In this document: piece by piece, positions 23,304 through 26,464 of the stretch
Position numbering within the stretch: position 1 is the first letter of the stretch
How the letters are laid out: every line of letters starts with the position of its first letter
NCBI RefSeq assembly: GCF_002270055.1
Contig: NZ_NIBG01000020.1
Location: 1-64,000, forward strand
Direction of reading: 5' to 3'
DNA: 64,000 nt
Source of the DNA: Anaeromicrobium sediminis
GTDB lineage: Bacteria; Bacillota; Clostridia; Peptostreptococcales; Thermotaleaceae
Notes under the pieces: generated by a model
The model's input: the letters and a program-made list of their open reading frames with translations, nothing else
What the model was told of the DNA's origin: nothing
Databases searched by the model: none
Program-made: the position numbers and the translations under genes

Positions 23304-23595
23304 TTCAATACTCCCCTTCTTACTTTTCTTTTATTAGTACCCATACAAAGCCATAAATAATCCTATTCTTTTTTCTAAGTCTAAGAACTAAAAAAAATCA
23401 TTAATTATGTTTTTGCCATTTGTTTTTTTCTTACTTCAATACTTAATTTAAGAAGTTCTTTTTCAAGTTTCACATTAAAAATACTTTTTTCACAAGTTTT
23501 TAGCTTGTCTAATATAATAAACTAAACGTAAAATAATTGTTTAGTTAGTACTTATATTTAGTTAAATATAATGGCAAATTGGAAGGTGATTCTAT

Positions 23596-24723
23596 ATGCG
23601 TTGTCAAAACGATATGGTTTGTAAAAATAATACAGGTTGCCAAGACGATATTCTTTTTTCATGGGGACGTAATAATTGGGGTCAATTAGGTATCGGCTCG
23701 TTTGGCGGTTCTAGCAATACTCCTATAAAAGTAATGAGTGGAGTAACTGGACTCTTCAATCCTATGGCTATAACTGCTGGTGGATTTCATAGTTTAGCAA
23801 TTGATCCCAATTATAAAGTTTGGACATGGGGACGTAATGATAATGGTCAATTAGGTGATGGTACTTTCACTAGTAGTAATATCCCTGTGCGGGTGAGTAA
23901 AGTAACTGGACTCTCCAATGTTATAGCTATAACTGCCGGTAGATTGCATAGTTTGGCAATTGATTGCAATGGCCAGGCTTGGGGTTGGGGAGGTACCTTT
24001 TTTGGTGAATTAGGTGATGGCACTTCTGGTCCTGGCCAAGATATGAATACCCCTGTTCAGGTAAGTGAATCAACTGGCCTCTCCAATGTTATAGCTATAG
24101 CTGCCGGTGGTTTTCATAGCCTAGCAATTGATTGTAGTGGGCAACCTTGGGCTTGGGGACGTAATTGGTTTGGTCAATTAGGTAACGGTACTTCTGGTCC
24201 TGGTGTTATTAGTAGTACCCCTGTACAGGTAAGTGGACTCTCTAATGTTATAGCTATATCTGCTGGTAGTGCTCATAGTTTAGCAATTGATTGTAGTGGG
24301 CAACCTTGGGCTTGGGGACGTAATAATAATGGTCAATTAGGTAACAATACTACCACTGATAGTAATACTCCTGTACAAGTAAGTGGACTCACCGATGTAG
24401 TCGCCATATCTGCTGGCGGTGGGCGTAATAGCGTCGATGATCCTTTTGGCCATAGCTTAGCAATTGACTCTGCTGGTCAAGCTTGGGCTTGGGGACTTAA
24501 TAATTGGGGCCAATTAGGTGACGGTTCTAACAGTGATAGTGATATCCCTGTCCAGGTAAGTGGACTCACCGATGTAATCGCTATATCTGCTGGTGGTGGG
24601 CATAGCTTAGCCATTGATTCTAATGGTCGGGTTTGGGCTTGGGGATTGAACTCCAGTGGTCAATTAGGTGACGGTAATTTCACTAATAGTGACACCCCGA
24701 TTCAGATAAGTGGAGGAACTTGA
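23596..24723 (+). CDS. RCC1-repeat beta-propeller protein, copy 1
   Basis: 375 aa of RCC1 repeats of about 50 residues, each of the form GLSNVIAIAAGGFHSLAID-x-GQAWAWGRNNxGQLGDGT. About seven blades can be counted. No signal peptide or membrane helix; a short cysteine-bearing N-terminus, MRCQNDMVCKNNTGCQDD, is shared with copy 2. RCC1 propellers are protein-binding platforms; the bacterial function is unknown. The frame continues beyond the TGA for one more half blade (24724-24804). RBS GGAAGGTGAT. Confidence 0.85.
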   Translation: MRCQNDMVCKNNTGCQDDILFSWGRNNWGQLGIGSFGGSSNTPIKVMSGVTGLFNPMAITAGGFHSLAIDPNYKVWTWGRNDNGQLGDGTFTSSNIPVRVSKVTGLSNVIAITAGRLHSLAIDCNGQAWGWGGTFFGELGDGTSGPGQDMNTPVQVSESTGLSNVIAIAAGGFHSLAIDCSGQPWAWGRNWFGQLGNGTSGPGVISSTPVQVSGLSNVIAISAGSAHSLAIDCSGQPWAWGRNNNGQLGNNTTTDSNTPVQVSGLTDVVAISAGGGRNSVDDPFGHSLAIDSAGQAWAWGLNNWGQLGDGSNSDSDIPVQVSGLTDVIAISAGGGHSLAIDSNGRVWAWGLNSSGQLGDGNFTNSDTPIQISGGT

Positions 24724-24804
24724 CTCTTTGATGTAATATCTATAGCTGCCGGTGGTCAGCATAGTTTAGGCCTAAAATATCTATCCTGTGGAATTCTGCT
24801 TTAG
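24724..24804 (+). pseudogene. In-frame tail of RCC1 copy 1 after the TGA
   Basis: Directly after TGA (24721-24723) the same frame reads on for 26 codons, LFDVISIAAGGQHSLGLKY..., a fitting closing strand of the propeller, to TAG. A GGA glycine codon stands at this place in the inner repeats. Copy 2 has the same TGA and a tail of identical length. Confidence 0.65.
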
Positions 24805-24883
24805 ATAATGCCTTTTTACTTTAAGTAGAATACAAATTATAAAATGTTATCTACAGTAAATTCATATATTCTTAAATAGCCAA

Positions 24884-24926
24884 GCATAACCTAAGGTAAC
24901 TCTTTCAGGTTATGTTTTGTTTATTT
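24884..24926 (+). terminator. Terminator after RCC1 copy 1
   Basis: GCATAACCT...AGGTTATGT stem followed by TTTTGTTTATTT; the same structure follows copy 2. Confidence 0.7.
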
Positions 24927-25157
24927 AACTGTCTCAATAATTCTACTTAATCCATAAAATTATTAACTTAAACTTTTAAATAGAAAATAAATTTATTATT
25001 AGTTATCCTACAGATTATATTCATGGCCAAGATTAACTGTCCCATAAAGTAAGTCACAAGTTTTCAGCTTGTCCAATATAATAAACAAACAGTAGAATAG
25101 CTGTTTAGTTAGTATTTGATTAGTTAAATATAATGGCAGGTTGGGAGGTGATACTAT

Positions 25158-26261
25158 ATGAGTTGTAAAAACAATATGATTTGTCAAAATAATATAGGTT
25201 GTCAAAACAATACCCTTTTTTCATGGGGACTTAATAGTTTTGGACAATTAGGTGATGGTACTAACATTAATAAGAATATCCCTGTAAAGGTAATCAGTGG
25301 AGTAACTGGACTCTTCAATCCTATAGCTATATCTGCTGGTCGATTTCATAGCTTAGCAATTGATTCTAATAATCGTGCTTGGGCTTGGGGACGTAATGAT
25401 AATGGCCAATTAGGTGACGGTACTAACACTGATAGTAATATTCCTGTGCAAGTAAGTAAATCAACTGGACTCACTAATGTTATAGCTATATCTGGTGCTC
25501 GATTTCATAGCTTAGCAATTGATTGTAGTGGTCAAGCTTGGGCTTGGGGATTTAATAATAGGGGACAATTAGGTAACGGAGTAACAGGCGGTTCTAGTAA
25601 TATCCCTGTACAGGTAGATACAACAACTGGACTCACCAATGTTATATCTATAGCTGGCGGTGGTAACCATAGCTTAGCAATTGATTGTAATGGTCAAGCT
25701 TGGGCTTGGGGGCGTAATAATTTTGGTCAATTAGGTAACAATACTACCACCGATAGTAATACCCCCGTGCAAGTAAGTGGAGGAACTGGACTCTCTAATG
25801 TTATAGCTATAGCTGGCGGTAATTTTCATAGCTTAGCAATTGATTGTAGTGGCCAAGCTTGGGCTTGGGGACGTAATGATGATGGACAATTAGGTGATGG
25901 CACTAACTTTAATCGTGATGAGCCTGTACAGGTAATTGGACTCTCTAATATTATAGCTATAGCTGCTGGTCGTGATCATAGCCTAGCAATTGATTCTGAT
26001 GGTCAAGCTTGGGCTTGGGGACTTAATAATAGGGGGCAATTAGGTAACGGAGTAACGGGCGGTTCTAGCAATACCCCTGTGGCGGTAGATACAACAACTG
26101 GACTTACCAATGTTATCGCTATAGCTGGTGGTCAAACTCATAGCTTAGCTATTGATTCTGATGGTCAAGCTTGGGCTTGGGGCCGTAATAATTCTGGTCA
26201 ATTAGGTGACGGTACTAACAATAATAGCAATACCCCTGTACAAGTAAGTGGAGGAGCTTGA
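25158..26261 (+). CDS. RCC1-repeat beta-propeller protein, copy 2
   Basis: 367 aa, about seven RCC1 blades, paralogue of the gene at 23596. The N-terminus MSCKNNMICQNNIGCQNN keeps the three cysteine positions of copy 1. Blades 3 and 7 share the insertion NGVTGGSSN, showing that blades have been copied within the gene. No signal peptide. The reading frame again ends at TGA in SGGA-TGA with a conserved tail behind it. RBS GGGAGGTGAT. Confidence 0.85.
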   Translation: MSCKNNMICQNNIGCQNNTLFSWGLNSFGQLGDGTNINKNIPVKVISGVTGLFNPIAISAGRFHSLAIDSNNRAWAWGRNDNGQLGDGTNTDSNIPVQVSKSTGLTNVIAISGARFHSLAIDCSGQAWAWGFNNRGQLGNGVTGGSSNIPVQVDTTTGLTNVISIAGGGNHSLAIDCNGQAWAWGRNNFGQLGNNTTTDSNTPVQVSGGTGLSNVIAIAGGNFHSLAIDCSGQAWAWGRNDDGQLGDGTNFNRDEPVQVIGLSNIIAIAAGRDHSLAIDSDGQAWAWGLNNRGQLGNGVTGGSSNTPVAVDTTTGLTNVIAIAGGQTHSLAIDSDGQAWAWGRNNSGQLGDGTNNNSNTPVQVSGGA

Positions 26262-26342
26262 CTCATCAATGTAATATCTGTAGCTGGCGGTGGTCAGCAA
26301 AGTTTAGGCCTAACATCTCTATCCTGTAGAATTCTATCTTAA
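26262..26342 (+). pseudogene. In-frame tail of RCC1 copy 2 after the TGA
   Basis: 26 in-frame codons after TGA, LINVISVAGGGQQSLGLTSL..., then TAA; the same length as the tail in copy 1. Confidence 0.65.
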
Positions 26343-26420
26343 GAAACACTTTTTACTTTAAGTAGAATACAAATTATAAAAGGTTATCTACAGTAAATTC
26401 ATATATTGTTAAATAGCAAA

Positions 26421-26464
26421 GCATAACCTCACGTAACTCTTTCTGGTTATGTTTTGTTTATTTT
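26421..26464 (+). terminator. Terminator after RCC1 copy 2
   Basis: GCATAACC...GGTTATG stem followed by TTTTGTTTATTTT. Confidence 0.7.

Follow-up and report, generated by a model that had tools for sequence, protein, structure and literature searches.

Organization of the tandem RCC1-like genes

The 64,000-nucleotide stretch of Anaeromicrobium sediminis DNA analysed here (the window) is part of contig C20 of a 4.71-Mb genome in 55 contigs, and carries two tandem genes whose RCC1-like proteins share 67–68% identity with each other (Table 1). As terminated, genes 1 and 2 score 274.5 and 300.8 bits against PF25390 (curated cut-off 150), and 263.2 and 303.6 bits against PF00415 (cut-off 21.7). 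A W.WG strand opens both genes, and counts taken from the printed sequences together with the predicted strands give an unbalanced set of W.WG and HSLAID strands, 7 to 6, in each of them. The flanks were duplicated together with the genes, including a promoter-like site on the 5’ side of each copy; over the whole region such sites number 18 against 13.9 ± 3.8 in shuffles, without clear excess. The difference between the copies reaches 22% in the bodies, 14% in the 5’ flank and 8% in the 3’ flank. The larger difference in the bodies suggests that they evolved fast or that repeats within a gene exchanged sequence with one another.

Table 1 Coordinates of the features of the tandem RCC1-like locus (positions in the window)
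Feature	Position	Strand	Remarks
Promoter-like site, duplicated 5’ flank of gene 1	23489..23518	+	TTCACA-18-TATAAT, consensus match only
RCC1-like gene 1 as terminated	23596..24723	+	375 codons + TGA; W.WG strands 7, HSLAID strands 6
Cys-bearing N-terminus of gene 1	23596..23640		
Body of gene 1	23596..24720		
Extra in-frame residues of gene 1	24424..24450		9 residues, around RNSVDDPFG
In-frame TGA of gene 1	24721..24723	+	at Gly position of repeat; neighbouring bases ACT-TGA
Open tail of gene 1 (tail 1)	24724..24804	+	26 codons, then TAG 24802–24804; LFDVISIAAGGQHSLGLKYLSCGILL
SECIS-like hairpin core, tail 1	24745..24760	+	GCUGCC-GGU-GG, bulged U, CAGC; fits bSECIS model
3’ flank of gene 1	24805..24926	+	110/120 aligned bases same as gene 2 flank
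A+T-rich inverted repeat, 3’ of gene 1	24885..24923		CATAACCT ... AGGTTATG
Promoter-like site of gene 2, counterpart	25053..25082	+	GTCACA-18-TATAAT, consensus match only
RCC1-like gene 2 as terminated	25158..26261	+	367 codons + TGA; W.WG strands 7, HSLAID strands 6
Cys-bearing N-terminus of gene 2	25158..25202		
Body of gene 2	25158..26258		
In-frame TGA of gene 2	26259..26261	+	position equivalent to gene 1 TGA; neighbouring bases GCT-TGA
Open tail of gene 2 (tail 2)	26262..26342	+	26 codons, then TAA 26340–26342; LINVISVAGGGQQSLGLTSLSCRILS
SECIS-like hairpin, tail 2	26283..26298	+	GCUGGC-GGUG-GUCAGC; fits bSECIS model
3’ flank of gene 2	26343..26462	+	counterpart of gene 1 flank
A+T-rich inverted repeat, counterpart in gene 2	26422..26460		one pair fewer

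Several smaller features accompany the pair. The N-termini of both proteins are short and Cys-bearing, with C3, C9 and C15 identical in the two copies despite 13 nonsynonymous against 3 synonymous changes in the first 32 codons, and this segment of gene 1 is modelled with low confidence; a Cys also directly follows AID in 6 of the 12 inner units. Gene 1 contains nine extra in-frame residues before the HSLAID of its fifth unit, which are absent from gene 2. On the 3’ side of gene 1, an A+T-rich inverted repeat with a T-rich run behind it is seen by eye, and its gene 2 counterpart is likewise followed by a T-rich run. Judged by their sequence, these elements are perhaps terminators; a terminator scan confined to loops of 3–8 listed no terminator.

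An in-frame TGA at an inner-repeat glycine position

The equivalent codon in the inner units of both genes encodes Gly in 12 of 12 cases (GGA 11, GGC 1), a count obtained from 15 matches after three in the wrong phase (24493, 25227 and 26019) were set aside, and each TGA is thus a single G-to-T step away from the usual codon. The bases beside the two TGAs differ, indicating that the gene pair is not one collapsed copy. Beyond the TGA, the two tails differ at 12 of 78 nucleotides with zero gaps, and a C stands next to the TGA in both genes. The first-pass annotation had described TGAs at the inner-repeat Gly position in a TGA-C context, a frame that then stays open for exactly 26 codons in both genes, and tails that have diverged without a frameshift, and all of these points are confirmed here. 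A search of the genome itself for extra copies of the tails returned 10 matches, all located within the pair itself, inner repeats included.

Among the other open reading frames of at least 150 amino acids in the window, 2 of 43 end in TGA, so that TGA functions as an ordinary though infrequent stop in the window. On this ground, and because UCA, among the tRNA genes seen by ARAGORN, is the anticodon of tRNA-Sec only, a reading of TGA as Gly or Trp throughout the genome was rejected. In the tRNA search, 150 of 316 candidates were scored and gave 45 matches, with no Glu, Ile or Tyr tRNA among those named; all 45 lie in ARAGORN-scanned loci, and the scan gave no tRNA call for a weak one at C19:1061 (29.7 bits). 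As this list is incomplete, a suppressor tRNA could have been missed. A tRNA-Trp with a 4-bp anticodon stem, an idea taken from PMC13092985, was also considered and rejected, as all three tRNA-Trp genes checked have a stem of 5 bp.

The open tails would complete the propeller fold

Reading through the TGA extends the PF25390 match of gene 1 from positions 2–345 to 2–362 of 363 and raises its score to 288.5 bits (+14.0), and the score of gene 2 rises to 310.0 bits (+9.2), with a best stretch that is partial in both forms. These increases in coverage and score indicate that the tail is part of the propeller. AlphaFold models, built for gene 1 only from nine-sequence alignments, contain 28 strands (7 × 4) in the read-through form and 26 in the stopped one, and gene 1 as terminated therefore falls short of the full set of seven four-stranded blades. 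These results accord with the earlier proposal that the 26 codons complete the last propeller strand. The tail 1 strands VISIAA (380–385) and HSLGLK (389–394) lie in stretches with a mean pLDDT of 71–95, and the last five residues of the read-through model have a pLDDT below 50. By analogy with the fold family, the tail strands would pair with the N-terminal strands in the closing blade. A Foldseek search with the read-through model returned full RCC1-like matches in the PDB, comprising the UVR8, RCC1, HERC and RPGR propellers. By comparison, the pTM is 0.89 for both the stopped and the long form, and AlphaFold thus gives no sign of misfolding for the stopped form.

That the tail supplies exactly the missing strands, in a model with full RCC1-like matches, speaks for a functional leaky stop, in which a few per cent of read-through by a near-cognate tRNA, most likely that for Trp, would yield a complete propeller beside a shortened one. 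Both copies have an open tail, tail 1 is still close to the repeat profile, the bodies have been kept even though the stopped product is two strands short, and the TGA is followed by C in both genes. UGA is naturally leaky in Bacillus subtilis. Against such a mechanism, no suppressor tRNA is found among the tRNA genes seen, the stem of tRNA-Trp is normal, and both the substitutions in the tails and the residues found at the aligned site of homologous units, described below, lack the expected signature. Taken together, we regard a functional leaky stop as unlikely.

Divergence of the tails and conservation of the bodies

Between the two copies, the tails have accumulated 10 nonsynonymous and 2 synonymous changes (omega about 2). 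The codon-substitution comparison proposed in the first-pass annotation thus reveals no synonymous excess, albeit with little power over 26 codons, and this absence counts against a leaky stop as well as against decoding of the TGA as selenocysteine. For the tail, the test excludes omega values of 0.2 (P = 0.001) and 0.3 (P = 0.01), is compatible with neutrality (P = 0.36) and does not reject the body value of 0.53 (P = 0.085). The divergence of the tails (12/78) shows no difference from that of the pooled flanks (25/224; Fisher P = 0.32), to which the 5’ side contributes 15/104 and the 3’ side 10/120. The ratio of nonsynonymous to synonymous changes in the tail is likewise inseparable from that in the body (Fisher P = 0.33–0.35), tests on 26 codons being weak, and codons 1–32, which are surely translated, show 13 nonsynonymous and 3 synonymous changes, with an omega close to or exceeding 1. 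At synonymous sites the tail has diverged less than the body (2/21 against 78/245; P = 0.04), a pattern expected from sequence exchange between inner repeats or from homogenisation of the 3’ ends.

In neutral simulations with 12 substitutions, both tails remained stop-free in 63–68% of cases, and the indel rate of the flanks leaves the tails free of indels with a probability of 0.36. Open untranslated tails are therefore expected about one time in four, and the openness of the tails alone means little. Across the 16 blade codons, with their 6 nucleotide changes, the amino acid replacements do not come out milder than random ones, either with a profile of other proteins (P = 0.16–0.26) or with the inner-repeat profile (P = 0.56–0.77). 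The fit to the repeat profile is 35.6 bits for tail 1 and 26.4 bits for tail 2. The score of tail 2 is no better than that left by random change from tail 1 (P = 0.16–0.35), and at most about 0.1% of the random-change trials that start from tail 2 reach the score of tail 1, which argues that tail 1 has hardly decayed. In tail 2, Gln replaces the His of HSL; among the 432 non-gap rows that the other units provide at this position, 336 have His.

The bodies behave differently from what neutral drift would leave. At 8–15% neutral divergence, as in the flanks, both bodies stay open in 0.05–1.9% of simulations, and the share of nonsynonymous changes in the body is below the neutral 0.75 (P = 0.003 for the whole body and P = 0.04 for its N part). 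The terminated or recoded products have thus probably mattered since the duplication, even though exchange between repeats has probably inflated the divergence of the bodies and made this estimate of selection a rough one. The same observations bear on the alternative that both genes are decaying pseudogenes, of which the shared TGA was the first lesion and neither product is of importance. Consistent with decay, omega is near or above 1 in codons 1–32 and in the tail, and the searches of genomes revealed no close orthologue of the pair. However, about 1.1 kb is open in each body, neutral drift at flank-like rates leaves both copies unbroken in fewer than 2% of simulations, the nonsynonymous share in the bodies is below the neutral value, and both copies keep their start codon and, by eye, their ribosome-binding site, so we consider it very unlikely that both genes are pseudogenes.

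Homologous RCC1-like units in other genomes

Matches to a profile of the inner units numbered 918 and came from 101 of 120 sources, namely 119 loci and the window, with overlapping loci counted more than once. A stop lies within only 9 of these 918 unit matches, each of them a copy of one of the two window genes. The aligned column at the TGA position, assembled from 510 distinct units of other loci (79 gapped) collected up to the 393-genome search described below, and located in a loop of variable length, contains Gly in 247 of 431 non-gap residues, Cys in 0 of 431 and Trp in 0 of 431, and the lack of Trp argues against a leaky stop read by the Trp tRNA. Three genome searches, in overlapping sets that each count the genome itself, found matches in 43 of 148 genomes (E 0.001), 16 of 393 (1e-40) and 11 of 391 (1e-50), and no other representative of the genus appeared in them. 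The query of the 148-genome search ended before the TGA and was blind to a stop there, and in the two larger searches only four candidates were scored for many genomes. None of the 46 matches listed outside the pair in the 393- and 391-genome searches has a stop inside it, but only 6 of the 46 pass the TGA position, and this count hence says little; the unit scan is the better test for stops in homologues than the listed matches.

No close orthologue of the pair was found in the genome searches and genome contigs (43 loci, best segment 53%) or in the phage-like and viral contigs (10 loci, best segment 33–40% identity), and all 92 plasmid records are under 60% identity. In the three plasmid regions examined, the RCC1 match sits in proteins longer than the window genes. 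L004, a homologue of the same layout that belongs to a different family of the order, terminates four residues past its last HSLA. Counted by eye, this protein has eight strands of each type, and two others (L012 and L057) have seven. A further two RCC1 genes, from two members of a single genus within the order (L096:1078–2448 and L095:1318–2634), have odd ends, one in a degenerate strand, NVMAISTGDRYFTS, and the other directly past the P..V strand.

Selenocysteine machinery and hairpins behind the TGA

The genome encodes tRNA-Sec (70.8 bits, Rfam cut-off 47; anticodon UCA) and SelB (391.6 bits, cut-off 242.25), and its GrdA (L091, C2:332802–333242) contains one in-frame TGA. As the organism uses selenocysteine, a point that the first-pass annotation overlooked, decoding of the TGA as selenocysteine is a third reading that needed a test. 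In this case, the hairpin behind each TGA would act as a bSECIS, and SelB would insert selenocysteine at the start of the last half-blade. The constraints on a bSECIS given in PMC13188914 are a loop of 3–9 nucleotides with a G in the first two and a stem of 4–16 bp, and both tails fit these constraints as stated there, with a loop that begins with GG 27 nucleotides past the TGA and folding energies of –7.9 and –8.4 kcal/mol. The model is fitted by chance at 69 of 1000 random codons from 14 other open reading frames. However, the inner Gly sites of the same genes fit it too, in 7 of 12 cases (5 with a G[GU] loop), indicating that the hairpin comes with the repeat.

Further observations stand against selenocysteine. 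Nearly all selenoproteins have Cys homologues, according to the same review, PMC13188914, and no Cys is found in the aligned column, where Gly predominates. In addition, no TGA-bearing homologous unit occurs outside the window genes across the 101 loci with matches. By comparison, the in-frame TGA of GrdA is followed by no standard bSECIS hairpin and fails a looser model as well, which limits the weight of the hairpin test both for and against selenocysteine. Two further approaches were discarded: folding energy did not discriminate between the TGA sites and others, and a selenocysteine-containing formate dehydrogenase could not serve as a second positive control, as both Molybdopterin-family matches are without an internal stop. 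The literature that pairs RCC1 with selenoproteins or bSECIS consisted, among the matches listed, of co-mentions in algal stress and renal cell cancer contexts. In this regard, despite the machinery present in the genome and the fitting hairpins, we judge it highly improbable that the TGA is read as selenocysteine. Slimmer still is the chance that the ready-made hairpin of the repeat, together with the Gly-to-TGA change, gave rise to a selenocysteine-decoded, selenium-containing propeller whose closing blade would depend on the selenium supply.

A probable shared nonsense change in a duplicated gene

We consider it probable that the tandem copies share one GGA-to-TGA nonsense change, received by inheritance or by spread from one to the other, and that this TGA acts as a true stop. 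This reading is favoured by the 10 nonsynonymous against 2 synonymous changes in the tails, by their flank-like divergence, and by the expectation that untranslated tails stay open about one time in four. Of the two readings offered in the first-pass annotation, a nonsense change that preceded a duplication too recent for decay is accordingly the better supported on these grounds, and the leaky stop is left without positive support by tests that are themselves weak. There is no positive sign that cells read through the TGA. On the other side, tail 1 has hardly decayed, and the retention of bodies whose stopped product is two strands short would be more readily explained by the production of some full-length protein.

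We propose that the ancestor was a seven-bladed RCC1-like gene, the C-terminal strands of which completed the blade begun by the N-terminal strands. A G-to-T change would have converted the GGA codon of the Gly that opens the last half-blade into TGA. The gene and its flanks would then have been duplicated in tandem, or the duplication may have come before the TGA change, which would later have spread from copy to copy; spread by gene conversion and inheritance of the TGA are indistinguishable here. In both copies the TGA would serve as an ordinary stop, and the main products would be proteins of 375 and 367 residues without the two closing-blade strands. Selection would have held the bodies open, implying that the shortened protein is useful, and the 26-codon tails would be untranslated or nearly so and drift like the flanking DNA. 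On this proposal, the pair represents an ordinary shared nonsense change, yet a clean example of one, in which a stop is common to tandem copies whose bodies have survived. Were the TGA leaky or decoded as selenocysteine, the two genes would amount to a natural test, in duplicate, of recoding in a cellular gene of a bacterium, and its read-out would be the completion of the fold.

Comparison with known systems

In common with bacterial selenoproteins, of which GrdA is one in this genome, the window genes contain an in-frame TGA in an organism with selenocysteine machinery, and their hairpins lie at bSECIS spacing. The window site differs in that it has no Cys homologues, no other TGA-bearing unit and no synonymous excess past the TGA. 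With genes subject to programmed stop-codon read-through, the window genes share the C next to the TGA and an extension that stays open and has a predicted part in the fold; the window extensions are distinct in lacking a synonymous excess.

Our structural comparison reveals that the read-through model matches UVR8 (4dnw; E 1e-35) and RCC1 (1a12; E 1.9e-30) over its length. The likeness to UVR8, RCC1, HERC and RPGR is one of fold only, at 22–29% identity, and does not imply Ran exchange or UV sensing. Among the homologues, L004 starts with a W.WG strand as the window genes do and ends just after its last HSLAI, and it comprises eight units as compared with seven in the window genes. The repeat and the fold are common to the window genes and the bacterial RCC1-like seven-bladed propellers (PF25390, PF00415). 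The differences are that the window genes stop two strands short at an in-frame TGA and occur as two tandem copies.
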